Of a DNA stretch of 64,000 nucleotides, positions 2,829 through 56,800 are shown one piece after another (position 1 is the stretch's first letter; the number at the start of each line of letters is the position of its first letter). Source of the DNA: Cladocopium goreaui (taxonomy: Eukaryota; Sar; Dinophyceae; Suessiales; Symbiodiniaceae). Below the pieces are notes generated by a model, which did no database searches, was not told the origin of the DNA, and was given only the letters and a program-made list of their open reading frames with translations. A program made the translations under genes and the position numbers. The DNA lies in contig CAMXCT020001380.1 in assembly GCA_947184155.2 (NCBI GenBank), positions 509,201-573,200 of the forward strand, in the 5' to 3' direction.

Positions 2829-5800
2829 TCATCCCCTGAGCGCCGCATCTAAACAGGCGCGCCAAATGGTGGGAGGTCCACCCTGCCAGCCCAGGACACA
2901 GGCGCCTTGCTCACAGTATTCCCCAAAGATCACCCGCGCCTTTCCAGGCCCCAGGCGTTTCACCATGAAGTCCAGCCGCATGGAGGGCACCGGTTGATGC
3001 TCGGCAGACAGCAGCCAGGCTAGGAGTAGCTGCGAAACTTTGATGGCCTTCTCTTTGGCCATTGCCCAGGCCACTGCATCTCCTACCGTTTGACATAGGG
3101 AGGTAGGGAGGTAGCTGAAAATGAGGAAACAAGACCCAAAGTCCCCCCCCCCAAAATGTAATGTTCATATGGATTGATATACTTTGATGGGGGAACATGA
3201 TAATCAATCATTGGATTTTGGAGTATATCATTTTCAGATAAGTCCACAGGATGTTTTCGATGAAGGTCTAAGGGCAGTTGGGGAAAACTTATGAAACCCT
3301 CCAACTTGTAGGGAATGTTGAAAAACATAAGGGCGCAGTTTATGAGGATTTCGTGATTTTCAAGAAAATGGAAGGCAAAACGCACAGCCCTCCCTTCTCT
3401 TCTTCATGGGACAATCCATATTCAAAAGCCTTTTCAAAAGCGGAATCCCGGACGCACGGCTCCTTCCCATCGGCTCAAGACCTTCTCTTCCGAGAGCTTG
3501 GAAAAGCTGGCACGGGAGACACCCACCGACTTGGTATCATCTGAGGGGCCCCAAGCGTTGCATTGGATCATCTTGGGTTCGATAGGGGCTTCACCAGGCC
3601 AGTCAGCCTCGGGCAAAAAGTAGAGTCGCATCTCAAAATCGAAGTCCACCCACTCCTGGAAAGAAACATGAGGAAGTGAGAAATTGTGAGAACCTGAGGA
3701 AGTTGTTGAAAAATGTCGAAAGGAACAACAGTTTAGGTCAACTGATTTCCAGCATTATGTGAAATTACATCTCTATTCGCTGATGCTGCCGCCACCACCA
3801 CCAGGAGGAGGAGGACAAACTCCTACTCCTACTCCTACTATTACTACTCCTAGTGCCAAAAGACGACCACGACCACCACCAACAATCATGACAACAATAA
3901 TTTGACATAATTTGTCTGATTATATCTGATTATACTGCCTTTTTTTTTAAAAAAAAAAGTTAACTAGTTGGATTTTTCCAACATTTAGCGAAAAGTGATC
4001 AAACAAGTGCCCCTCCTGAACGATGCAGTACGTGGCCAAACAGCCCGGCTGATTCATGAGCTCCTTCAGCCTCGCCTGAAGATGACTCAGGCTGTTGAAG
4101 GTGACCACGAAACGATTCTCCCAGGACCAGCCCAGCTTCACCACACCCTGGACGTCGAGTCGGATGGAACTTTCTGACGGTATCCAACAAAAATTACGGA
4201 TTTCAGGGACAACGATTCTGTTTTTTTTTGGGAGAAATGGTGAGTTTACCAAGGTTTACCTGTGGATCGAATGGGATCTAACCAACGAAAAAAATGGGAT
4301 TTGACCACCGAAAATATATGGGGAGTTCACCCACCTATAGGGGATAATGGTGATGATGGGGTTTCACTACCGTTATGGCGATGATTGGGATATATAAGCC
4401 AGCGATACCCAGGGGATTTATGATGCGAAAGAAGGCTACTGTTGAGTTCTGATCCGTAGTCAAACAAATGGGGGCCCCAAACAATGCCACAAATCAGCAG
4501 CAACCGGTATTCACCAGCTTCTTGTTGAGCTTTGCGTTAAGGCAACCTGATGTTCAGTCATTCTTCACCATGCCATGGTCTCGATCTTTGATAAGTCCAC
4601 AAAAAATAATCGAATCTTTTACTGGTTGCGGTCATTTTCATTCATTTCCATTGCAAAAAAACGTCTCCAGGATTAGTTTCTACCCAGTCGGAGCGCGCCT
4701 TTTGGATCCCATTCTGATTGACCACTGAAGGTGCTGGGGGGTCTCCCGGCTCCACAGGATATGGATTCATCCGTCGAATGTGGTGCAGCGTCCGTAGGGC
4801 GGTTTCCGCCGCCTTCGCCGCATCGATCTTCACGCTGCCCTTACTCACAAGGGTGGCGGCCGGCAGAAACGCACCTGCGGACGCCGCGATTTGGCGCTGG
4901 ATGAGGCAGACCCCAGAAGGAGTGGAGCAAAACACTGTTACTTGATGTAAAAATCCACACAACAAGCCATCGTTTACGTTTTGTTTGCCCAGAATCACCG
5001 GCAACCAGATACCTGGTGTCACTGTAAATATTGTAAATGGGGACTGAAGATCTGGCTCATTTCTGTCCAAGAATTCTATGGATGTTTCAATGCACCAGAA
5101 AGCCTGACCTGGATGCAAGGATAGAGTTGCCATCCACGACTTCGAGGTGATCAGTTCATACTGATCAGCTGGATGTGGGAAAAGGCTGCGAATGCCCAAG
5201 CCCTCGCAAGCCCTCATGGCTGCGAACATGGAATGCCGCTCAATGTAGCAAGCATAATCAGGATCACCAAAATCTTCCCACTCAGCTGGCCAAAGCATCC
5301 AGAAGGCCGCACGGCGTTGGGCCTTCAAGCCGGCCCGGATGATGTGGGCTTGTTGAGCAATCAGATGAGCATCCTTGGAGTTGGAAATAAAGACATGATG
5401 CAACTCGAAGAGAGGCATCCCTTGTTCATCTTTCAGCCCAGCATGGGCCTTGATGCCTTCCTTCACCACATGCCCCATATACTCGTCGCTGGGAGGTGAA
5501 CCATACTTGCCCCAATCCCCATCGTTGGCCTCTTGCTCATCCATCCACTTGGAATACTCTCCGCCCCAGCGCACAAAGAGCAGCGAGAGTTTGCAAGGTG
5601 GCGACTTGGCAGTTGTGACCCATCGAACCTGCAGAGGAGTGGCCAGGGCCGCTGCCGTGCCCTTCCTCGTCACGAAGGAGTACTCCGCTTTGGGCCTTAC
5701 CTTGGGCCAGGTCTCCTTGCGGTCTGGGTCCACTTTTTGCCCATCAAAGTCGTGTTCCAAGGTGCCCAGCAACCAGGCATGGGAACCAGCAAAGAGGAAT

Positions 5801-5961
5801 CCACCTGGCCCGCGGTTCTTGGGGGTGCCACAATACACCAAGGGCGCCCGCGGGTCACTGGCATCAGATTCGAAGAAGAACAGCACCTGTTGGCCTTTCT
5901 CCATCACTGTCGAGCGGCCGGGAGAATATGGCCGTTTCGTACCATTCACACCGTCAGGCAT
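2829..5961 (-). CDS. ATP-grasp-like protein, four exons, about 617 residues
   Basis: Four exons join in phase: 5961-4746 (ATG at 5961, MPDGVNGTKRPYSPGRS), 4173-3983, 3655-3463, 3082-2829 (stop TGA). Exon 1 supplies a long N-terminal region with SMFAAMRACEGLGIRS and YELITSKSWMATLSLHP. The following order of motifs matches an ATP-grasp fold: QGVVKLGWSWENRFV (nucleotide-binding lysine), ATYCIVQEGHLF (iiQE-like strand), DFEMRLYFLP, then MRLDFMVKRL and ARVIFGEYCEQGAC where ATP-grasp enzymes have their metal-binding D...E-N/Q end. ATP-grasp enzymes form acyl-phosphates to ligate carboxylates to amines or thiols; the substrate here cannot be told. The best joins use GA donors after exons 1 and 3, and either GT or GA after exon 2. 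The reading frames are strong; the family call is by motif order only. The next minus gene starts 710 bp downstream. Confidence 0.65.
3785..3860. repeat. CCACCA/CTCCTA microsatellite
   Basis: A short run of CCA-type then CTCCTA/TACTAC triplets inside the third intron region of the ATP-grasp gene. No coding signal. Confidence 0.7.
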
Positions 5962-6399
5962 GGCAGGGTTTTTGGACAAACAGGGACACAGATCTACAGC
6001 AACCGTAGAATGAATAGACAGCTGTGCATTGAATCAAAGATATCAAAGCACCACACTGGACTACAATGCGGTGAAATTGCAGACTGATTGTGGAGTGCTC
6101 ACATTGACCATCTCTCGGCCTAGTCATATGTGTGAAGCTTGAACTCAGAATGGAATTGCGCACATTCAACTCGTAAACGCCTGAGACTTGGCAAAGAGAC
6201 CGCTGAGACCTGTGCCCTTTACATCTACAGATCCATCCTAGTGCTTTCACATGCAAAAATTGCTTCCCGGAAACTGTACTGATCACATCTGATCACGGCA
6301 CAGCTGATTGTGCACCTCCTTTGGCGCTGCTTGAACGCCTTGGCTCGACTCTCCACTGAAGGTAACAGCTCAAGGTGTTGAGAGAGGTGTCCCAAAACA

Positions 6400-7369: not shown

Positions 7370-10300
7370 CATCATCCACCGCCTTAGAGGCGCAGTAATT
7401 ATCAAAAAACACAGGCTCTTTGTAAAGCCGACAATGTGAAGCACATGGCCAGAGAGGCTTCGGTGCCCGAACTTCTGCGGGCAGCTGCAATGTCTGCAAG
7501 CAGCAAAAAGTGCCAAAAATTAGACAAAACAGTTGGAGAAATCTTGGCCAGAGACTCGAAATGAACTATATCCATTTTGGGCTATATCTACATGCACAGA
7601 TATGTATTCAGACGTATATTATATAATATATACGTACATATATTGTATCTATCATTTTCTTTTTCTATTCAACTCCTCCTCGTCCTCCTTTTCCTCCCTT
7701 TTTTTTAAAAATGTTTTTTTCCTGTTTTCATTGTGTAGTTGTTGTCAATGATTTTACCATACAATATAGTCTGCATTCATTGTGTAATTGTTGTGATGGA
7801 TTGTTGTGATGCCTTTCTTCTTTTGCGTGTGTGCTTATCATTGACCGGACCGTTTCTTGCTTTCACGTTTTCTTGTGCAGGCGAGCATGTCAAGATAGTC
7901 GAGAACGATATCATTAAACGGGTTTTTCAACATTTGAGGGATACATTATAGATGTGTATGGATCTAAACCCGGTAGCATTGGTTTTCCACACCACAATAG
8001 TTGTTACAGCTAGAAGTTCATCCCCCAGGCTGAGAGAAGCTCCTAAGCGACGCTGAGTGACTTGTGCCAAGGCTCACCCTCTGGTAAACAGCCACATAAC
8101 GAACTGGAAAGATCCACCATAGAAATAGTGAATTTTCCCGTGAAAAACGGGGATTTTCCATAGTTATGTTAGTTTACCAGAGGGTACACCATGTGATGCT
8201 TTAGAAGACCGGTTTCCAGCTTGGAGATCTTGAGAAGCCTCTCCGTGGCATGGCACTGTGAACGTCAAAATTGGTGCCAGGGTGCCAGCAATCACTGGGC
8301 ATCCCAGCGTTTTTTTTTTATGTACATGTCAACTTGACATCGTGTCCTACCCCGAGCAATCATCGGAAAACAGAACAACCACGAAACACCTATGGCATTG
8401 GAATCTCAACATGAATATATATATATATGATATATTATATATAATATATGCTATACATATATATATATATATGTTATATATGTCTGTTGTGCGTCTCAGC
8501 AAGGGGTGGGTCTGCTCTCCAGGGATTTCCTGGTGTTGTTGGCGTGGCTCTCTTCCTCGGATAGCGCATGGATTTTGAGGTGCTTTATCTGACAAATGCA
8601 TGTCTGTAGATATTATATTAACATACATACAGTAACATATGTGTATTCTTATAATATATATATATATATATGTAGTGCAGAACAAAAAAACAATGGAAAT
8701 AGGAAAATACCTATATATATAATATATATATACATACACACATATATCAGGGAGATAAGACATGGAAATACTCATAGAAAAATGAATGTGGTGGTATTAC
8801 TCTGTGAAACATATTTTCAGAATACATCTGCGAATCTCAAGCCTTAGGATTTTCATTGCCGAGCCGAGCGTCTGTAATCAAGTCGGATGATTCCACCATT
8901 TCGAAGATCCCGAAATCCTTCGCGACTCGGTATGGTTCCTCGTCTTCCTCGTTCTGAACCTGTCGGAACCCCCTGGAGTGCAGCAGCAAGAATCACATGG
9001 TCAACCTGAGTTTTCAAACCATCATGGTTGAATCACCAGAATATGATCTAATGATCCTATTCTATATAATGTTGTACTGTATTATATTGTATTATATCAT
9101 AGTATATCTATCATTCATGATATCATAATATATCATATAGTCTTACATAATTCGACAGACATGTCAGAAATGTGGCAGGAAACCATGCTTTGGATCAGAC
9201 TTTCATGAGGTGCCTTGCCGCCATCGTCAACTTTGCTTATTGAGCCAGAGACAACCTGCCGAGGTGTGTCTCCCATGGGCTCGTCTTCTGTAGTCCTGGT
9301 GCCTTGTTGAAAATCCCTGAAAAAACGAACAGAAGAGAGTATTTTGGGATGTGAACCTAAAGCTTCATGTTGAGATAGATATAGAATGATATATAATCTA
9401 AAAAATATGTATATATATATATGGTCCAGCGTTCCAACCTCCCTCCCCCCGCCATGGTCATGGGTCAGCCATAGTACTGTCCCCTTCCCCCCCTGTGGTG
9501 TGGTGGGGGTGTGGTATGGTATGTTGGGTATGTATGGTGTGTATGTCGGTCTGGTATGGCATGTTTGGAATGTATGGTATGTTTGGTATGTATGGTACGT
9601 ATGGTATATATGACATGAAGGGTTGGTATTGTATGGATGGTAGGTATGGTATGTAAGTCTGTTGGGTATGGTATGCTTGATATGACAGTATGTATGGCCT
9701 GTATGGTATGTATGGTTACTATGATGGGCATGGAATGTTTGCTATGTAAGGTAGGTATGGTATGTATGGCATGTACGTTTGGCATTGTATGTATGGTAGG
9801 TGTGGTAATTATGTTTCATATGTATGGTATGTGTGGTATGTGCGATAGGTGGGATAGGCAATGGTATGTATCGTCAAAGTTCGTATGGTATGTATGGTAT
9901 CATTGGAATGTATGGTAGGTACAGTATATGTTAAACACATGTAGTGTTGTGAGAGTACACAGGTAGTAAATAGGAAGTAGATGCATAGCACTTGTATGTA
10001 TGATATGACTATAGGTAGCACGTAGGACGTAGGTACTTTGAGGGAGTATGTGTGCTACGTAGGTCGTCTAAAAGGTAGCATGTACCTAGTAAATCCGAGG
10101 CTGGTAGTCAGAAATGCTGCAAAGACCTAGCAAATACGAGGCTGGACCTCAGAAATGCTGCCACTAGCTTGCAAATAGAAGGGAAGGGGGTGCTACCTGG
10201 GGACCCATACCATTGGGGGGGTAGGAACACGGAACACGAGACCATATTGTATATATATATACACATATGTTGGGATGTTCTATGATGTTCTGCTACGAGT

Positions 10301-13300
10301 AGCTATTTAAAGGCTCTTTACTTCAAACCTAAGGCTCCTCAGCCAGGTATCGCATCCCAAGTCGCCCAAGTTCCCCCATGCAGAAGCACCTTCTTGATGC
10401 AAAGAACGTCGATCAACTCCTAAATGGAAACACATGAACAAAAATCCGGCTTGACGTGAACATGCGTAGAAAATCGTAGAAATGGATGAACTGAACACAG
10501 CGACACAAACCTTCAGTTGAACGGAAGGGTTTATTCGAAAATAGGGTGCCCTCAAATCCAGTGATTTTCTCATTCAGATTGTGATTTTTATCTATTTTAC
10601 ATTATTTTGACGTAACTTGGCCATTATTGGCCATTATTGGCCATTATTGGCCATGATTAACCACTATTAACCACTATTAACCACTATTAACCACTATTAA
10701 CCACTCTTAACCATTATTAGCCATCACCAACACCATAATAGCAGCTTTTGATGTTCCCCTGATCACCGCTTCGCGATCCTTGGAGATCCTCCATGGCGCA
10801 TCCCTCAGAACGAACGACCTGGGGCCGGCGTTCGTTGCGATTTATGGATGTGAAGAATCACTCAAATATGGTATACACATGGTATAAGTATAAATGGTAA
10901 GAAAATTGCATAAATATGGTATAATATGGTATAATATGGTATAATATGGTATAATATGGTATAATAGCTGTTGATAATGTTTTATCCATCTTCAATTTCC
11001 GGTCAAATGCTGGTCCGTGCACATTTGAAGATTCTTTTCCCAGCCCTGAAAAGATCAGAGTCGAAAACTTCTCTGAAGAGTCCACTGTTTTGTCGAAAAT
11101 GCTGGGGATGATCTTTCCATGTCTTTCCCGGATTCTTCATCGATCGTAAGCGCTTCAGCTGAAACTTCTCGGTTCGTTTGCTCCAAGCAACACATTGCGG
11201 TTCTGAATGATTCGCCCCACTCGTGTTGCGAAGTCCTCGTGGCTCTTGGAGCCGAAGACTTCGTTCCTGCCGAAGATCAAGCTGTGGCAGCTGGCAGAAT
11301 CATCGTAACTGATGGGTTGGATAGGATTTTAAACAAGAATCAATGACAAAAACACCATTCCTCTTGGGGGGTGTACACACCCAAAACAATCCCTGAAAAA
11401 GGCTGGGAAGATCTGAGTATATTTGGACAGTCTGCAGCGCGTTTCGCCAAGTTGCAATGTATGATCTGAATGCACCCCCACGAGAACATGAGAGCCTCGA
11501 GCTTTGGCTTCCTGGCAGATGGCAGTGAACTGCAGAAACTGCAGGAAGTATAGACGTGCAACTTCGATCAAATTCTTATGCTTGAACATGTTGTTGCCAA
11601 GATATTGAAATGTGCTCGAAAATAAAACAATGTAGCGGCCCTTCAGCTCTTGCGTTACATGTTGAGCTGCGCTGCCTTCAAAATGCGCTGGTGGCCAGCG
11701 TGCAAGAAGTTCCACGCACCATCAACCTGTGATGTCGGGTTTTTTCGTGGAGGGAACAGCTGAGACGACAAGATCAGCCAAGGTACGTACACGACCTCCT
11801 TGCAATCCCAAGGATATTCTGAAGTGCCTGACACAAGAATGAGAATGAGATGATTTCTGGTGAAATGAGTGTTTCTGGAGAATTGAAGACTTTAATCATC
11901 AAAAATAAGAACAATATCATATTATGAGATTTTTTTTCTGGAGTAGAAGAAACACCTCTCTCAATCCTGGGCAGAACAAGATCCTGCATCCCTTATGTAC
12001 CCTTATGTCACCAAAATAACTGGTAAAATCCAAAAAATATGGATGTTCATCCCAAAAAAATATATGGTATACCCGGTATTGGCAATCTACCATGACAATG
12101 GAATTGATGACCCATTTGCAGCTGATTTACCTCTTAAAACTTGGTGTTCTACATTGCTATGTTAGATTTCAAAGGGATTTCACAGGGTTTTTGTCATTTT
12201 AATCCATATCAAAGGTCCTATCATGTCCTATCCCTCACCCTTGGCTCCCTCACGCCTTCGGCCAGCTCCACTAAGTCCAACAGCGGCGAACCACTCAGGG
12301 CTTCGTTGGGCGAGGGCAGCATGGCGGGGGGCTCCAGCAGCTTGTCGTTGAGTCCTCGATTTTCCCATGAAAAATGGTGATTTTCCATGAAATCACCGTG
12401 AAATCAGCGATGGAAAATCCAGTGGCTATCATTTCCACTAGAGCTTGGAGCATGTGGAGCGTTGCCAAGATTCTCACTGCAAACTGCCTGCACTCAATCG
12501 ATTGAAAGGCAATCACAGCGATGTTTTCGTTCCTGAAATCAGGGATTTCAGGAAGATTGGACGAAGACTCGGAAAAGTACGCATCATCTGGATCTCAAAA
12601 TCAAAATCGTGGAACAACTGTGTCATGAAAGATATGGTGTGCTTGCTTGGTCTTGGCCATCTAACAACACACTGTGGATGGTTTTTCATTAAATCAGGTG
12701 AATCAAGAGTGAGCACATGTTAAACAGCACATTTGTTTGCTGCTGTCGGAGTCAGTAATATCATAATGAACTTTGTCATTATTCGTAAACCGGTCACTCT
12801 GATGATGACATCGGTTGATGTGTCATTCTGCAAAATAGGACATGCAACATAATATAAATATTAGTAATATATTGCAATACAATATGCATGCACATGGAGA
12901 ATTAACAATAACAAAGATCATGACAACCATACGTAATACTGTGGATGGTTGCGAAATCCTGCACCACCAAAAGGATGGTTGAAACCCGAACAAAATAATG
13001 GGATAAACCATCAACTGGTGCAGGATTTCCCAACCATCCACAGTAGGAATATGTAATGGGTACCACGGGCCAAGTCGCTGCTGCTTGAGCTTCGAAAGCC
13101 AACTCTGACACACCTGCGGTGCCCCCCAAAAAAACATAGCAGCGACCAGGACCAGATGGGAATGCCATGGGAATATCATGGGAATCAAATGAGATAATTA
13201 AAAACCAACAATTGATGAGAATAAAATGGGCTTAAGACCCAGCTTGAACAGTCTTGGGGCCATCTCAAAACAAGCCGACATATCAAAACGAAATGAGGCG

Positions 13301-14125
13301 ATTTTCCACTCTGTTCATCTCATAGCTGCAGTTTCTATCAATTTCTTGCACTTTTCAATATTTTCAATGCACTTTTCAAGCACTTTTCATTCTGAGTCTC
13401 TGAGTTTCTGAGCCTCGCAGGGCCAAAGCGGATTCATCTTATCCTCAGCGCCCAGGAAGGGCCCAGGTTGATCTGCATCGAATCTGAAGATCCAAGATCT
13501 GAGTCACTGGATGGATGACCTTTATCTTATAGTTATATAGTAAGATAGATATAGATATAATATATATAATTATATATATATATATATCTAATATATAATA
13601 TTTATATTAATTATATATATATATCATATATATATATATCATATATATATATATCATATATATATATCATATATATTATTTCAAAGATTTCAACTCTTTT
13701 CTTACTTGACCTTTCACCACCAAGGATCAAAGAACGTGTTTTCGCCAAGAAGCGGTTGGATCCAAGGTCGCGATTGTACTAATGTCTCCAGAATGGACGA
13801 AATCACTGGCAGCACCTAGCGGATCGCTGCGGATTGCTGAAGGCTAGACTTTTTGGGCTACAACTGGCTAAAAAAAAAACGTAAGTGGAGACATAACATA
13901 ACATGACATAACCACATGTTCATCATGTTCTTAAAAAGCTATTCTTGTTTTTCAAATCAGCAGTTCTGTTGATGTTCATCCCGTATTTAAGGGTCGTTTC
14001 AGTCGTTTCATCCCGAAGCTCTTCTCCCAAGCCGTCGAGCTGCGGGCGATTGCTGCGCGCTCAGCACAAAAGGAGCCCGCTGGCAAGCTCACCTTGCAGC
14101 CAGGCCACGGCATGGCATTGGGTGC
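7370..14125 (-). CDS. Cytidine-deaminase-like + cytidylyltransferase fusion protein (ECT/PCYT2-like)
   Basis: Minus-strand exons in order. (1) about 14125-13998: GCKVSLPAGSFCAERAAI, the cytidine deaminase CAE zinc/proton-shuttle motif (CAE codons 14060-14068). (2) 13483-13414, NPLWPCE, GC donor. (3) from 13113, VCQSWLSKLKQQ; the join gives PCEVC, the PCxxC zinc motif. (4) a probable exon about 12500-12416. (5) 12354-12256, LNDKLLEPPAMLPSPNEAL, GC donor. (6) 11827-11787, SEYPWDCKEVVY. (7) 11726-11676, VDGAWNFLHAGHQRILK, with the HxGH motif of CTP transferases. (8) from 11511, EAKARGSHVLVGVHSD. (9) about 11300-11180, SHEDFATRVGRIIQNRNVLL. (10) about 10814-10767, DAPWRISKD. (11) 10419-10344, ELIDVLCIKKVLLHGGT. 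(12) 9316-9184, acidic linker. (13) 8959-8843, EEPYRVAKDFGIFEMVESSD, GC donor. (14) from 7493, TLQLPAEVRAPKPLWPC. Ethanolamine-phosphate cytidylyltransferase makes CDP-ethanolamine in the Kennedy pathway; exons 6-13 follow the order of its C-terminal catalytic half. Joins 2-3, 5-6, 6-7, 7-8 and 12-13 are in phase; 8-11 are approximate. The start and the 3' end are not found. That the two domains form one protein is inferred from the continuous exon chain. Confidence 0.7.
7520..8840. other. AT-rich intronic/intergenic stretch with (AT)n tracts
   Basis: Contains T-rich and (AT)n runs at about 7600-7740, 8410-8480 and 8650-8750 and one hairpin MITE (8075-8186). No exon seen. If exon 14 of the fusion gene is correct this is an intron of about 1.35 kb. 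Confidence 0.5.
8075..8186. mobile_element. Stowaway-like MITE, family 1
   Basis: Starts (t)acCCTCTGGTAAAC (first bases diverged) and ends GTTTACCAGAGGGTA. The body is an imperfect palindrome with the family core (accat...ttttccatag). Lies in the cytidylyltransferase gene interval. Confidence 0.8.
9430..10300 (+). repeat. Dispersed GGTATG-rich repeat, copy 1
   Basis: A core of degenerate GGTATGTATG repeats (9495-9935) is followed by unique-looking sequence with short direct repeats (agaaatgctgc, 10109 and 10150) and ends near ccattggggggg. The same sequence occurs reverse-complemented at 32868-35000. Open frames across it (VWYVWYVWY-type peptides) are repeat artefacts. It sits in the intron between exons 11 and 12 of the fusion gene. 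Confidence 0.85.
10603..10735. repeat. Decamer tandem repeat (TTATTGGCCA / CTATTAACCA)
   Basis: About twelve 10-bp units, first ttattggcca then ctattaacca. The unit length and the TAACCA core match the large decamer array at 14.85 kb, so the two may share an origin. Confidence 0.8.
10915..10965. repeat. 10-bp tandem repeat (ATATGGTATA)
   Basis: Five near-identical copies of atatggtata within an intron. Of no clear function. Confidence 0.8.
12940..13048. mobile_element. Hairpin MITE, family 4, 29-bp arms
   Basis: The left arm actgtggatggttgcgaaat and the right arm (reverse complement actgtggatggttgggaaat) match at about 28 of 29 positions, with a loop of about 50 bp. It lies just inside the intron after the PCxxC exon of the deaminase domain. 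A partial relative is at 53193-53236. Confidence 0.75.
13530..13680. repeat. (AT)n tract
   Basis: Almost pure A/T with repeated catatatatatat units. Intronic, no coding signal. Confidence 0.85.
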
Positions 14126-14845: not shown

Positions 14846-16235
14846 TTCAATAACCATCAATAATCATTGATAACCATCAATAACCATCAATAACCATTGA
14901 TAACCATCGATAACCATTGATAACCATTGATAACCATTGATAACCATCGATAACCATTGATAACCATCAATAACCATTGATAACCATCGATAACCATCGA
15001 TAACCATTGATAACCATTGATAACCATCAATAACCATCAATAACCATCAATAACCATCGATAACCATTGATAACCATTGATAACCATTGATAACCATCGA
15101 TAACCATTGATAACCATTGATAACCATCGATACCCATCAATAACCATTGATAACCATCGACAACCATTGATAACCATTGATAACTATTGATAACCATTGA
15201 TAACCATTGATAACCATTGATAACCATTGATAACCATTGATAACCATCGATAACCATCAATAACCATCAATAACCATCAATAACCATCGATAACCATCAA
15301 TAACCATTGATAACCATTGATAACCATCGATAACCATTGATAACCATCAATAACCATTGATAACCATCGATAACCACTGATAACCATTGATAACCATCAA
15401 TAACCATCGATAACCATCAATAGCCATTGATAACCATCGACAACCATTGATAACCATTGATAACTATTGATAACCATTGATAACCATCGATAACCATTGA
15501 TAACCATTGATAACCATTGATAACCATCGATAACCATCAATAACCATTGATAACCATCGATAACCATTGATAACCATTGATAACCATTGATAACCATTGA
15601 TAACCATTGATAACCATCAATAACCATCAATAACCATCAATAACCATCAATAATCATTGATAACCATCAATAACCATTGATAACTATTGATAACCATTGA
15701 TAACCATCGATAACCATTGATAACCATTGATAACCATTGATAACCATCGATAACCATCAATAACCATTGATAACCATCGATAACTAGTGATAACCATTGA
15801 TAACCATCGATAACCATTGATAACCATTGATAACCATTGATAACCATCGATAACCATCAATAACCATTGATAACCATCGACAACCATTGATAACCATTGA
15901 TAACTATTGATAACCATTGATAACCATCGATAACCATTGATAACCATTCATAACCGTTGATAACCATCGATAACCATCAATAACCATTGATTACCATCGA
16001 CAACCATTGATAACCATTGATAACTATTGATAACCATTGATAACCACTGATAACCATTGCATGATAACCATTGATAACCATTGATAACCGTTGATAACTA
16101 TTGATAACCATTGATAACCATCGATAACCATTGATAACCATTGATAACCATCGATAAATATCGATAACCATCAATAACCATTGATAACCATCGATAACCA
16201 TCGATAACCATTGATAACCATTGATAACCATCAAT
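14846..16235. repeat. Decamer satellite TAACCAT(T/C)(G/A)A, about 139 units
   Basis: An almost uninterrupted array of a 10-bp unit. Positions 8-9 vary between TG, CG and CA, while TA is essentially absent. Rare variants (taactattga, caaccattga, tacccatcaa) recur in the same order, giving higher-order structure (caaccattga/taactattga blocks near 15160, 15440, 15890 and 16000). Open frames across it encode only repeats of GYQWLSMVIN type. It probably lies in an intron or between minus-strand exons at 14.7 and 16.6 kb. Confidence 0.95.
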
Positions 16236-26861: not shown

Positions 26862-28186
26862 CTAGCCAGGCATCTTCTCCTTGAGCAAAGCAGCAATATC
26901 ATCCTCCTCCATATCCAACACAGATCTTAAAGCTATGGCCATCTCGTGCTCGTACTTCCTTCGATTTGCTGATCTCCAAGGGTCAATTCTAACTTTAGAA
27001 AAATAATTGTCCCCCCTTTCTGGTGGATTAACCAATGGGGAAAATGAGAAAACTCTGAAAGAACATCAGCAAATCCAGGTTTCTCGGGATGTGCACTAAA
27101 CATGACCAAGGTCAACATGGCAGTACTCCTTCCAGGCACCTTGTCACATCCAGCCACGGCAGCATTGGCCAAGAAGCGCAAATTGCAAATGCCGATGCCG
27201 GTCTCACTGACTGCATTGATCAAGGCGTCTAAGTCGAAATCAGGGGCCGAGTCTTTCAAAGAAGCCTGGCATCATGTAGATTAAGAATTTGTGTGGCGGA
27301 TAACTGGATCACCCAAACATGAACAAACAGACTCCTTGGATCTTTTTGGATCTATTTAACATATCATGAGGTCAGAATTCCTCCTCAACTCTTGGGATAT
27401 AAAATTTGGTCCCAATGCCACTCTGGACCAACCCCCAACCTCACAAACATCGAACAAGGCATCCACTTCATCACCTGTGAGGCGGCAATCCTTTACGCCA
27501 GCCAGGTCAGCATTCATGAAGGCTTCCAACATCATCTGCAGGAGTTCAGCACAGCTGACGGTATGAAGCTCTTGCAAGGTGTCCTCGAACTGCTGCAAGT
27601 TCTCCCCCATCTTCTGCTGAACTGCTTCCAACTTCTGCCTAACACCACTCAATTCATCCAATTGAGACGCCAGCATCTCATTTTTGGTCCGAAAGATCTC
27701 ATTTTGCTTCGCCATAGCTGAGACCTCCTGTTCCAAGCCTTCATGCGCATAGGCGGCCCCTGCTGAGACAACGGCTCCAAAGCACAGCAGCAGGGCGGCG
27801 AAAGTGGCAAAGCCATCGGGTTGGCCGCCAATGATGGGCACCCCATTGAAGGGCTGCCCTGTGGCCGCCATGATACCCAAAAACACCGCCAGCACCGACA
27901 TCAGCAGGAAGGCATAGGTCACCAACCGGAAGAAGCCAAAGGGACCCAACCAGCCACCAGGAGGACTTGGAAGGCCACATAGTTCAACGACTTTGAAGCT
28001 GAAGGCTGCCAAACCTGCCATGGAACAATCCATCTTAGGCATTTCCTTGGCAGCTGTGCTTGGTGCAGCTGCTGCAGCTGGCGCAGCTGCCACCAGTGGT
28101 GCATCTGTCCTGTCTGTTGCAGGCGCAGGTTCCACTGGGGCAAGGGGTGCAGGTGGGGAGCGAGTGGTGTCCCTCATGGGCTTCAT
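26862..28186 (-). CDS. Membrane/coiled-coil protein, 330 residues, three exons
   Basis: Exons 28186-27440, 27265-27127 and 26968-26862 join in phase (donors GAG|GTTGGG and GGA|GTACTG; acceptors GCCAG and ATCAG) and end in KEKMPG plus TAG. Residues 1-55 are Pro/Ala-rich (RSPPAPLAPVEPAPA). Residues 88-113 (LVTYAFLLMSVLAVFLGIMA) and 126-147 (FATFAALLLCFGAVVSAGA) are two membrane segments. Residues 150-215 (QNEIFRTKNEMLASQLDEL) are a likely coiled coil. The C-terminal half (LTGDEVDALFDVCE, DFDLDALINAVSETGIG) has a spacing like degenerate EF hands but no clear calcium ligands. The frame is open upstream of this ATG (CRRFTPKIHAVCDA), so an earlier exon is possible. Function unknown. Confidence 0.8.
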
Positions 28187-28671
28187 GGCATCACAAACTG
28201 CGTGAATCTTTGGTGTAAAGCGTCGGCAAGAAACGGGTTCTGAAATCAGGATTTAATCTGAGTGGTTCATGCCCTTTTGTTCCAGTTGGCCATGCTTTGC
28301 CATGAAATGGTTTAAGGAGGTCTGTTTCATGTGTGACAAACTTTTTTCAGGCTCTTCCGATGAAAAAAAATACCATGACAGTGCTGGAAAATGAAACGCA
28401 TTCCTCATCATGCCTTGAACAGGAGCCTTGAGCCAGGATGGGCAGGTTGACAGGTTTGACCATGTGCTCGTATCTGGATGTACGTATATATACATATATA
28501 TATATCAATTATATATATATATATAATATATACATACAGTACACGGAGGTTCAAAAAATGGGGGTACCCCCAAATCATCCATTTGAAATGGATTATCCAT
28601 TGTAAACCATCCAGCTATTGGGGCAACCCCATGGAAAGCCCCATATCCGTGGGGTCGGTCGAGGTCACCCC

Positions 28672-32867: not shown

Positions 32868-35000
32868 CCCCCATATATATGGTCCCGTCCTCCGACTCTC
32901 CACCCACCCCCCCAATGGGTTGGGTCCCCAGGTAGCACCCCCCCTTCCCTTCTATTTGCAAGCTATTGGCAGCATTTCTGAGGTCCAGCTTCGTATTTGC
33001 TAGGTCTTTGCAGCATTTCTGACTACCAGCCTCGCATTTACTAGGTACATGCTACCTTTTAGGCGACCTACGTAGCACACATACTCCCTCAAAGTACCTA
33101 CGTGCTACCTATAGACATATTTATATATATATACACATGTGCTATGTATCTACTTCCTATTTACTACCTGTGTACTCTGACAACACTACATGTGTTTAAC
33201 ATATACCGTACCTACCATACATTCCAATGATGCCATGCATACCATACCTATCATACCTATCATACCACACATATGAAAAATATTCACCCCGCTTCGCGTG
33301 GGGTGGCCGCCCACACCGCAGGTTTATTTCCGTCCGTGAGAGGGGCTAAGGGTGGTTTTCCCCCGTGGGGGCTCCCCAAGCTAAGAATTTTCACTTTCCC
33401 CCCCCCGTGGAGGCTCCCCAAGCTAGGGAATTTTCACTTTTCCCCCCCGTGGGGGCTCCCCAAGCTAGGGAATTTTCACTTTTCCCCCCCGTGGGCCCGT
33501 GGGGGCTTCCCAAGCTAGGGAATTTTCACTTTTCCCCGCCGTGACAGCTTCCCAAGCTATGGAATTTCCACTTTTCCCTCCCTTGGAGGCTCTCCAAGCT
33601 GCGGAATTTCAAATAGCTAGACAACAACGCCTAGATAGTCCCCCAAATCCCGTGTTCTTTGAATGTGTTTCCATGTTTTTGCAATGGTTTCCTTCAAAGC
33701 ACGGTACTTTACACTTTTGTCGCCATAAAACCGGTCGAAAACATCATGTTCGACAATGCTTCCAATTCCCTTATCTCCCCAACCGTTGAAAATACCGCTA
33801 TTTACAGTGTTTTCTTCAATTTTTCCATGTGCCAATGCCGGTAGCCAACTCCAACATATATATAAGAAATCCTTCCAAAACATTGTTTTTGACAGTGTTT
33901 TTCCAATGTTTCCAGTCAAACAGACGGTAATTTACACGTTTTTTGCCATAAAGGCAGTAAATCCTTCCAAAACATTGCTTTTGACAGTGTTTTTGTAATG
34001 TTTCCAGTCAAGCATACGGTAATTTACACGTTTTTTGCTATAACGTCAGTCCAAAACACTTGTTTTTGCAGTGTTTTCAATGCTCTGGCATCCAAAAACC
34101 CTGCAAAATCTTGCTATGTACAATGTTTTTTTCATTTTTGGCCGTTTTTCCATTGCCGGAAAGCTACCAAAATGACCCAAAATTCCATTTCAATACCCTC
34201 TTGCGCTCAGACACCCAAAAATCCTCGAAAAATGTCGAAAACACCACCGTATTCTGGTCTCGGTGCGAAACCGTTTTTGGGCCCCCCCCAGCTAAAGCTG
34301 ATATAGCGACTGCTATATTAACAAATGTCATTGAGCATTTAGTGTTGCTGTTTTGCCCCCCAATAAGCACGCCTTCACCGCCAAAGCGGTGTGGGCGGAA
34401 TTACCAGGCCTTCCATACATACAATACCAAACATCCATGCCATACATACCATACCTACCTTACATAGGAAACATTCCATACCCATCATAGCAACCATACA
34501 TAGCATACCTATCATACCTATCATACCTATCATACATACCATACATTTGAAACATAATTACCACGCCTACCATACATACAATACCAAACATACATGCCAT
34601 ACATACCATACCTACCTTACATAGGAATCATTCCATACCCATCATAGCAACCATACATACCATACAGGCCATACATACTGTCATATCAAGCATGCCATAC
34701 CCAACACACTTACATACCATACCTACCATCCATACAATACCAACCAATCATGCCATACATACCATAACTTGCATACATACCAAACATACCAGACCGACCA
34801 TACACATCATACATACCCAACATACCATACCACACCCCCACCACACCACAGGGGGGCACCACACCACAGGGGGGGGAGGGGGAAGATCTCATATGGGGGC
34901 AGTATATGGGACCCATCCCATGGGGTGGGGGAGGGGGGGGTGGCAGGGCCTGCTGCATATATACTGCTTGGTGGTTTGGATTATCATCCCAAAATGTATG
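32868..35000 (-). repeat. Dispersed CATACC-rich repeat, copy 2 (inverted)
   Basis: The reverse complement of the repeat at 9430-10300: ccccccaatggg and caggtagcaccccc at the left, ctactaggtacatgctacc-type sequence in the middle, then CATACATACC repeats (33200-33270 and 34410-34830) and ccaccacaccacagggggg at the right. It is interrupted by a separate element at about 33290-34400. Confidence 0.85.
33290..34400. mobile_element. 1.1-kb insertion with 13-bp terminal inverted repeats
   Basis: ccgcccacaccgc at 33307-33319 and its exact reverse complement at 34386-34398 bound a segment absent from repeat copy 1. Inside are about five copies of a 39-bp G/C-rich minisatellite (cttccccaagctagggaa-like, 33350-33600) and degenerate 90-100 bp repeats with gacagtgttttt and cggtaatttacacg (33640-34150). 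It encodes no transposase that I can see, so a non-autonomous DNA element is the best guess. Confidence 0.6.
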
Positions 35001-35296: not shown

Positions 35297-35700
35297 TCTA
35301 CCCAAGGACCCGGCAAACGAAAGCGCATGACGGATGCTTTGCGCCGTCCCCCCGCAGACCACCATCAGCAGCATTGGCAGCAGCTCCTTTGGCCGCACGG
35401 GTGCCTTCCTGGCAACGCACCAAACAGATCAACTCAGATCTCAATCGCTTCACTCTGTGGTGCAAAAATTGGCGATCACTCCCAAAATATCCCAAAATGT
35501 TGTAATTATCAATGTATCAAATCATGTTTCCCCAAAATTGCTGGTTGATCATCGCAGCATATCCCAGTTCTACAGCTAATTTGTGCTCATGGGGGCACCC
35601 CAGCGCCTGACGGGGAGGGTGGGCCACCGCGCGATAGTAGAGTCCATCAGGGCGCCCAAATCATCCGGCAGAGGTGCTAATTCCTCTGGCACTTGGATCC
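35297..35700 (-). CDS. Two unidentified exons
   Basis: About 35700-35605: WIQVPEELAPLPDDLGALMD and STIARWPTLPV, possibly ending CAG|GCGCTG. About 35412-35297: PKELLPMLLMVVCGGTAQSI and RHALSFAGSLG, ending TTGG|GTAGAG. Good coding character; no family recognised. Confidence 0.45.
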
Positions 35701-53800: not shown

Positions 53801-56800
53801 TATCAATAATATCTATTACATTTTATTGCCATCATGTTTGTAATCGTCGATGATTGGTTGCAATCAAAGGTCTCAAACATTATTCAACCAATGACCAAAA
53901 CTCGCAGGTTTGAATCATTTTACACATGGCCAGTCACCAAGTTGGGAGTCGGCAACGTCGTCACAGTGAAAGACTATGAAAGATGATTGCGATTAGAGTC
54001 TGATTTTCCAGAGTTGAAACATCCCCCCAGAGGGCCCAGAGGTGATGAACATTGCATTCCGAATTCCCCTCTGGTTATTTAACATAGCTATGGAACATGG
54101 CCCCACTATAGATGATAAAAATTTTAAAAATGACGATTTACCTATTTACCTATTAAAAACGGTGATTTCTAGACCGTTAAATTACCAGAGGGTAAATCGA
54201 TCTTTGCCAAGGTCTGGTCAGCAGGCGACGGCCCTAGTTGCACGGCTGAGATGGGGGCGGTAGTTGCGCTTGGCCACAGGATCTGTAAGGGCATCATAGG
54301 CCTGCAGGGCGACAGTGCGGGATACCCAGGGGGATTGTTTTGGATGTTTTGTCGTGTCTCAAAGTTATGATAAGTTATGGGCTCCCAGTGTAAGTATGTA
54401 TAATACATAACGTATATATATATATATTATATAATGTTTACATAATTAATATGTTTATATGTGCATACGAGTACATACAGATTGAGCGTCCCTGTCAACA
54501 TGTATGGCTTGGCTGAGGAATGCATACATCAACCCTCGTTGAAGATCAGCTCCCTCGGTGCGCGGATTCCTGCATGGTGCAGGGATCTCTGGTGCCTTCT
54601 TGATGAGAATAAACTTCTCTGCGGCGGCTGTATCGGGGTTCTTATCCGGGTGATACTTTAGTGAGAGCTTGTGAAAGGCCTTCCTTGGTTGACAGATGTT
54701 GACAGATGTTGACAGTTCATGTTCAAAATCTCAAACACTTCATTTGAAAATGCAGGACATGGAATCGTCGGAGGAATCCAGAGACCCCAAGGCGGTTGTG
54801 ATGAAACAGGTAGACTAAACATGACTAAACTTGACTAAACCCCGTTGAAGCCGAAGAAATTGCATCCAAGCTTCTTGATCTGTGAGCTGGAAGATGTTCC
54901 TCCAACTTCCAAAATTGCATAGGGATCAAAGTTTTGGTACCTCAGCACAAAATCTGCGAAAGCTTCGGACACATTGCAACACAATCATCCATCGCCGGCA
55001 GAAAGTGCTGCCTGAATCGCTGTTGCTCCAAAAATAACCACTGCAACCAGGCAGCAGCGCGCTGGTCGCCAGCACTTGCCGCACCTTGGAGGTGATCAGT
55101 TTTGACATCGAATCTTTACCGATCCGCGCGATAGGTGGTTCCGGACAGTGATGGTTGTAGTGAAGTATAAGAATCTACACTCCAAAAGACATCTCTGTTT
55201 GCTCCACTTGGGGACCCGATCTCTGTGCGTTCAAATTCATGACATTCCAAGCGAGCAAGAATACATCGAGTAGTACATTAGTACAAACCAGACCAAACCA
55301 AACCTATAGTTTCCAGGGAAAATTTCGGGACCCATTTTATGTTCCGAATCCCTAAATGAGTTCGTCGACCCGTCGCCTGCACCACAATGTAGAGAAGCCA
55401 GCACCACAAAAGCACAAGCAGAACCAGTCGCCTCGGTCAACATATTAATCACCGACTCAACTCGTGGTGTGGCATCATTTTTTTGAAATCATATAACTTG
55501 GATATAACCATGGATATAACCATGAATTCATATTAATATATATATAATTATATATATATAACCATAAAATACATTAAAATACCATAAACTTCTTTAGCTG
55601 TCATGAGTGGAGTAGAATTAACTTCTATGACTTTCATCAGAAGAAATACACCTGTTGTGGTTGGTCAAGTCCAACTGGAGTCCAGCACTTAAACTCGCCG
55701 CGCTGCGATGCGAAGCCCGCAGAGATATGGCGGGACTTCAGCCGGCGCATGTCAGCTTCACGACGTTCCTGCCGGACAGTGGCCATGGGCCATAGATTGG
55801 CAGGTTGGGAAAGGAACAAAGGTCCAGAAGTAGAGGACCCTAAAATCATCTAATTTTTGTTTTGTAATGTTTAATGGGGAAACCCATGGTTTAGTTTAGT
55901 CTATAGGGTACCCCAATTTTCAGAAAACTCATAATGGCGATCCCCTAACAATTTTTGATAGTGGAATATGGTGAGTGTTCAATTAATGCAATAATGTCTC
56001 TCGAAATTCAGGTACCCAAAAAATCCAAAAACCATTGGTTTCCCTCAAAGGAATGACCAATTTGGGATGATTGTGCGGTCCACTACTAAAATAAACAAAC
56101 AAAGAAAGAAAGAAACCAAGAAACAAAAACGGAAAAGGAAACCCTTATTTGAGAGAATAGAAAACCTTGCCTACATACCCGCCAGTAAACTAACATAAAT
56201 ATCAAAAATCTATCGGTTTGCAAATCATTTCCCTAGGAAAACCATAAAACCTCGATATCTGGCTGTGCCTGAATACAGGGGAGTGACCACCATTTATGGC
56301 TAGACTATAGTGGCAAAAATGATTCTGGCTATACTGTAGTGTGTAAAAAAGACGTTCTGAACATTTCCCAATCATTAAATGGATCTTTTCAAAATCATAA
56401 GGGTACCCCAAATCATCCAAGTCATGACCATGACTTAGCATTGAAACAACCATGGTGACTTGGGGATCCTGATCATCTCAAGCAACCCCATCGAAGGGCA
56501 GTTCGGAGCGCCTGCATCGCCTGGGTACTGCAGAGCCTCACGCGGCTCCCTTCAATGGTCGTAGGGAATGCCTTGGCCACCTGCCGTTGGGCAGATTTTT
56601 CGGCCATCGAGAAAACCAAGGACTTTACTGGATGAATCGGTTCATCCCAAAAAATACATTAAAATATATACTGGGTGAAGAGTAAATCATGTTTTTTCCT
56701 TAGAACCCAACATATTCTAAAAGGTGGATTTAAGGGTCAGATTCCGGTGTCGTTTTGGTCAGAACCCGCCATTGGATGCCTCGGCATGTCCAGGGAAGAG

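Follow-up and report, generated by a model that had tools for sequence, protein, structure and literature searches.

A probable fusion of an LmjF.36.5940-type deaminase with a cytidylyltransferase-fold domain in Cladocopium goreaui

The LmjF.36.5940-like subfamily of CDD/CDA-like deaminases (Pfam PF14421), which is characterized by the motif C-X-E-X24-36-P-C-X2-C, has been described in kinetoplastids, stramenopiles, chlorophytes and Perkinsus, and its Trypanosoma brucei member, TbCDA-like, alters both dNTP and rNTP pools and combines a CCCH zinc finger with a C-terminal deaminase domain (PMC12064671, in the part of the article available). Cytidylyltransferase (CTPT) domains are found as a pair in the ethanolamine-phosphate cytidylyltransferase (ECT, PCYT2) and are of the same fold family in the choline-phosphate cytidylyltransferase (CCT). 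The available part of PMC6060094 gives an RTEG(I/V)ST(S/T) signature and an RWVDE-type dimer motif as features of active enzymes, and reports that the K663A variant of Plasmodium CCT is "practically inactive" and that T761A and T762A, which affect threonines of helix E, have a kcat of 0.0010 per second, down from 1.45. Here we describe a locus of the dinoflagellate Cladocopium goreaui (assembly of 1.17 Gb in 6,202 contigs) in which two domains of these kinds, both recognizable, probably belong to one gene, in a new pairing of known domains. It lies on the minus strand of a 64,000-nucleotide stretch of contig CAMXCT020001380.1 (G000:C1380:509201-573200), hereafter the window, from the first base of which all positions are counted. 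A search of literature titles and abstract starts returned no description of such a pairing, which may be recorded in the 2011 paper that defined the family or in protein databases.

The joined reading frame and its two domains

Between 16755 and 8837 on the minus strand, 16 exons (E0 to E13, including E0b and E4c) join into a single open frame of 990 nt, encoding 329 residues and closed by a TGA stop at 8837. All 15 introns end in an AG acceptor and begin with GC (12), GT (2) or GA (1), the three donor types that predominate in the column that we take as Symbiodinium microadriaticum in a table within the available part of PMC5177918. The exons have a GC content of 53.4% and the introns one of 38.4%. 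A 5' start was not found upstream of 16755, and the exon count is accordingly at least 16. The predicted protein would have an LmjF.36.5940-type deaminase domain, followed by a linker of about 40 residues and a single CTPT-fold domain akin to the C-terminal half of ECT; in TbCDA-like the deaminase is the C-terminal element, whereas here the linker and the CTPT domain come after it.

The deaminase half is recognized by PF14421 far above the cut-off of 27.1 (92.6 bits for this part, 88.7 for the full chain), while PF00383 gives the full joined chain 18.6 bits, under its cut-off of 25, a difference from cytidine deaminase (CDA). The domain starts in E0 (16755-16674, YLAEWQQASKDAYWQRKSGKTVLSVLI, GT donor), which is inside the PF14421 match and was located with a single-frame deaminase encoded at C85 (tblastn E 5.8e-4), and continues in E0b (16359-16295, GC donor), an exon spotted by eye and then joined in phase, whose predicted strand FRVFRGMNTE aligns with vyrgcnie of the cytidine deaminase 1jtk. 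The aligned match to 1jtk is weak and includes the CAE, PCxxC and G-x-N-x-E motifs. The zinc-binding cysteine and catalytic glutamate are on E1 (14092-14044, VSLPAGSFCAERAAIA, GC donor), likewise inside the PF14421 match, followed by E2 (13815-13754, AASDFVHSGDISTIATLDPT, GC donor), while the two cysteines of PCxxC are divided between E3 (13443-13414, DKMNPLWPCE, GC donor) and E4 (13113-13079, VCQSWLSKLKQ, GC donor), so that NPLWPCE is joined to VCQSWLSKL. The resulting CAE-X33-PCEVC (spacing counted by hand) fits the C-X-E-X24-36-P-C-X2-C pattern, and the chain therefore shares both the Pfam family and the complete zinc and catalytic motif of the LmjF.36.5940-like deaminases. The last strand is predicted on E4c (12532-12474, NENIAVIAFQSIECRQFAV, GA donor), which was located by a small-exon scan. 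In that scan, with a partly invented target peptide, another exon, NDTSTDVIIRVTG (12827-12791), scored 38 against 23 for the NENIAVIAF of E4c; it was nevertheless dropped as the end of the deaminase, because the chain with E4c reaches 92.6 bits with PF14421 and the chain with its competitor 77.3.

A first-pass annotation, made from the letters of the window, had already read the order of the deaminase motifs in E1, E3 and E4, and this order is borne out. Its extent for the gene needs enlarging, as the deaminase begins further upstream, at about 16.76 kb and beyond a 1.38 kb minisatellite, and E0, E0b and E4c are additions to its exon set. When six exon-bearing frames of the gene were scanned one by one with Pfam, the GSFCAERAAI frame alone produced a match at E<=10 (PF14421, 17.1 bits), which was below the cut-off.

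The linker exon E5 (12354-12256, LNDKLLEPPAMLPSPNEALSGSPLLDLVELAE) ends in phase 1 at a GC donor and continues in frame into the following exon, as the first-pass annotation had proposed. The CTPT half then begins with E6 (11827-11787, TSEYPWDCKEVVY, GT donor) and E7 (11726-11676, VDGAWNFLHAGHQRILK), across whose junction EVVY|VDGAWNFLHAGH is read and the second of which carries an intact HxGH motif in the form HAGH. It proceeds through E8 (11511-11441, EAKARGSHVLVGVHSDHTLQLGE, with VLVGVHSD), E9 (11266-11189, NEVFGSKSHEDFATRVGRIIQNRNV), E10 (10818-10770, SFVLRDAPWRISKDRE, with DAPWRISKD), E11 (10419-10366, ELIDVLCIKKVLLHGGTW, with VLLHG) and E12 (9255-9214, VVSGSISKVDDGGK), which like E7 have GC donors, to E13 (8959-8837, VQNEEDEEPYRVAKDFGIFEMVESSDLITDARLGNENPKA and the stop), where EEPYRVAKDFGIF is found; this succession of motifs, too, agrees with the earlier reading. 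Exons E2 to E4 and E6 to E13 are placed by the joined frame, E7 being also within the match to PF01467 (CTP_transf_like). A search for an additional exon between E9 and E10 was negative, and the phmmer alignment to CCT requires none. PF01467 scores 27.3 bits with the CTPT part and 25.6 with the full chain (cut-off 21), so that the joined exons pass the models of both families, the second pass depending on the placement of the E7 donor. The donor first chosen for E7 added one residue and left PF01467 under the cut-off, at 19.4-19.6 bits for the CTPT part alone and 17.6-17.9 in the joined chain, and with a donor three bases further upstream the insertion disappears and the scores are those given above.

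The closest solved sequence to the CTPT half is the ethanolamine-phosphate cytidylyltransferase 3elb (E 1.3e-10), followed by a putative cytidylyltransferase (E 1.7e-4) and by choline-phosphate enzymes at E 0.0015 or worse. Within the genome it is identical at 45/123 positions to the C-domain of an ECT-like protein at C6115, at 27/107 to the N-domain of the same protein, at 20/55 to a C-type piece at C2907 and at 33/129 to a CCT-like protein, all in comparisons with chains that were joined by eye and may contain errors. Hence, the CTPT half resembles the second domain of ECT; CCT is of the same fold family and has HxGH in common with it, but is the weaker match.

One gene or two

It is likely that the deaminase and the CTPT domain are parts of a single gene. 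E4c is separated from the linker exon by only 119 bp, no stop interrupts the deaminase frame until position 12295, within that exon, and E6 has no in-frame methionine, so that the CTPT domain cannot start there; taken together these observations favor one gene over two. The linker itself has the appearance of coding sequence, with a GC content of 65% against 42-43% in its flanks and a codon score of 13.4 in the fused frame, compared with -6.5 and 9.5 in the other forward frames and -4.4, -1.4 and 6.5 in the reverse ones. This score, which was obtained with a table of 1,304 codons from four unverified open frames of the same genome, one of them in the window, is reached by 46 of 20,000 random 99-nt pieces. 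No copies of the linker were found elsewhere in the genome, the four matches being three at the locus itself and one on C24 (E 1.7) that we take as chance.

Several observations weigh against this prediction. The splice sites of the chain are predictions from the DNA, picked to preserve the frame and homology, and per junction there are 6-13 open-frame donor candidates between -15 and +30 nt around the donor, 1-7 of them in phase; at E4c and at E5 the donor used is the sole in-phase candidate. Of 3,000 random 646-nt intervals, 246, 335, 606 and 1,169 contain an exon-like piece with the phases of the linker at scores of at least 13, 12, 10 and 8, respectively. Because donor-like sites are common, the fact that the two halves can be spliced into one unbroken frame is weak evidence when taken alone. 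No convincing CTPT domain accompanies another PF14421 deaminase of this genome, at C2229, in 30 of the 109 kb there (best E 1.4). Finally, the key junction, between E4c and E5, has the only GA donor of the gene. A GT donor five bases upstream of it (TTTGCA|gtgaga) would bring the linker into another frame, in which the deaminase ends at 12295, and the linker exon contains an in-frame ATG at 12322.

This alternative donor and the ATG would both fit a locus of two adjacent genes on the same strand, namely one for a stand-alone LmjF.36.5940-type deaminase and one for a small single-domain CTPT-like protein that starts at 12322 and whose transcript would receive its spliced leader at the AG preceding 12354. 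Such an arrangement, which we regard as somewhat unlikely, would be in keeping with the spliced leaders and the tendency to unidirectional gene order in Symbiodinium given in the available part of PMC5177918. It would also be in keeping with the PF14421 match at C85, which falls in a single open frame of 165 residues (72.3 and 47.3 bits) and suggests that a stand-alone deaminase may exist in the genome. However, the deaminase frame is open past the supposed acceptor and its stop at 12295 is downstream of the ATG at 12322, so that the two coding regions would have to overlap in different frames, and the linker scores 13.4 in the fused frame against -6.5 in the one that ends the deaminase. The gaps, of 119 and 428 bp, also compare poorly with a mean intergenic distance of 3,633 bp and are to be set beside a mean intron of 504.7 bp (PMC5177918, available part, column taken as S. 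microadriaticum). A search of the window for spliced-leader-like sequence (the last 15 bases, with up to two mismatches) gave one match, at 35560 counted on the reverse strand and far from the gene.

The role of the cytidylyltransferase half

The first-pass annotation had combined two proposals, that a CDA-like and a CTPT domain occur in one gene and that the latter uses CTP to activate phosphoethanolamine. The former stands as the best reading, with both family models matched in one joined frame; the latter is not supported, the CTPT half being a lone and divergent C-terminal-type domain. In our alignments the column of the catalytic lysine (K663 of Plasmodium CCT, K122 of RnCCT) has no basic residue in the CTPT half, and RNVLSF is present instead of an RxVDE/RWVDE-type dimer motif, in the position at which the C6115 protein has RYVDDV. 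The RTEG(I/V)ST(S/T) signature, of which T761 and T762 of Plasmodium CCT are presumably part, is replaced by ESSDLITD. The C-domain at C6115 has an arginine in the lysine column and lacks RTEG(I/V)ST within its aligned part; hence, some of this motif loss appears to be usual for C-domains. The protein further differs from ECT in having one CTPT domain rather than two and in the attached deaminase. A second CTPT domain was sought with ECT N-domain queries, and none was detected in the 64 kb of the window or in the adjacent 10 kb (L040), the best match outside the known exons having an E of 1.5.

The lack of the lysine, RxVDE and RTEG(I/V)ST features suggests that the CTPT half binds a nucleotide rather than making CDP-ethanolamine, a role in lipid synthesis being less likely than nucleotide binding. 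We propose one minus-strand gene in which the deaminase half would be an active enzyme on cytidine or a cytidine nucleotide, and the CTPT half, its catalytic residues lost, would be a non-catalytic partner that binds a cytidine nucleotide or mediates dimerization; for this combination as a whole the chances seem to us evenly balanced. CTP or a CDP-alcohol could then set the activity of the deaminase, and phospholipid precursors might feed back on pyrimidine pools, with no second lipid-making activity in the protein. More specifically, a dead domain derived from the C-terminal half of ECT could control the deaminase by sensing CTP or CDP-ethanolamine and in this way wire lipid precursors to pyrimidine pools, a proposal that is tentative and rather doubtful. 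If true, the fusion to an ECT-type domain would suggest that the ligands of the LmjF.36.5940-like deaminases are cytidine nucleotides or CDP-alcohols, and would connect the Kennedy pathway to pyrimidine metabolism in a concrete, testable way.

A truly bifunctional protein, whose CTPT half would have retained the synthesis of CDP-ethanolamine or of a different CDP-alcohol while its deaminase acts on the same cytidine pool, is improbable. An intact HxGH, a domain that covers the aligned C-domain of ECT and the closeness to 3elb would all suit such an enzyme, but it would have to function without a basic residue in the catalytic-lysine position and with neither RxVDE nor RTEG(I/V)ST. In addition, the window yielded no N-terminal CTPT domain, and exons of both ECT halves are present at other loci, C6115 and C329. 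Least probable is that the gene is in decay, a pseudogene of fused or tandem origin that lacks a working product, as might be suspected from the divergence of the CTPT half and from introns that hold a minisatellite, a palindrome resembling a miniature inverted-repeat transposable element (MITE) and simple repeats, since the 990-nt frame is intact across its 16 exons, usable splice dinucleotides are present at the 15 introns and the deaminase motif is conserved.

Related loci and other features of the window

In addition to the C85 protein, the genome encodes a PF14421 member at C2229, which scores 75.2 bits after exon joining; the genome search with this family scored only two candidates and failed to return the exons of the window itself, so that the family count is a lower bound. 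Pattern searches of contigs confirmed no relatives of either half in IMG/VR and none of the deaminase in GTDB genomes. Beyond the locus itself, the CTPT exons closest to those of the window are at C6115 and C329, with 52% identity over 43 residues. Some 3.9 kb upstream, each of these two loci carries an N-type exon, HEGMFVDGVFDLTHYG, and the N-type piece of C6115, joined by hand, scores 39.5 bits with PF01467; they thus look like normal two-domain ECT genes, the first read in detail and the second known from exon matches. The ECT exons seen at C6115 (L035, L036) and C329 (L037, L038) are alike, and the two may therefore represent duplicates or haplotypes of a single gene. The ECT-like gene at C2907 is in two frames with a stop between them. 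A 338-codon frame at 5390-4376 of L041 (G000:C2419:50001-60000) encodes a tandem pair of CCT-like cytidylyltransferase domains that are nearly identical to each other, and PF01467 matches on C2834 and C6055 are spaced like these tandem domains.

The minisatellite that splits the deaminase domain occupies 14850-16231, in the intron between E0b and E1, and consists of 137.8 copies of a period of 10 (TRF score 1993). The MITE-like palindrome, at 12937-13045 in the intron between E4 and E4c, has two 30-nt arms that are 97% complementary. On the minus strand, a 463-codon open frame at 4645-6033 has the top coding score of the window, being itself in the training set, and gives no Pfam match at E 10. 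Another of 298 codons at 27359-28252, also minus, is coding-like, and the piece of it that was scanned has no above-cut-off Pfam match. A dispersed repeat of the CATACCATA type is present at 9508-9841 and at about 34550-34830 of the window, and also at about 33130-33680 of C2229. Two pieces of DnaJ domains are found on the minus strand, one at 1422-1568 that stays below the cut-off of 27.8 with 23.3 bits and one at 54536-54682 that passes it with 40.9 bits.

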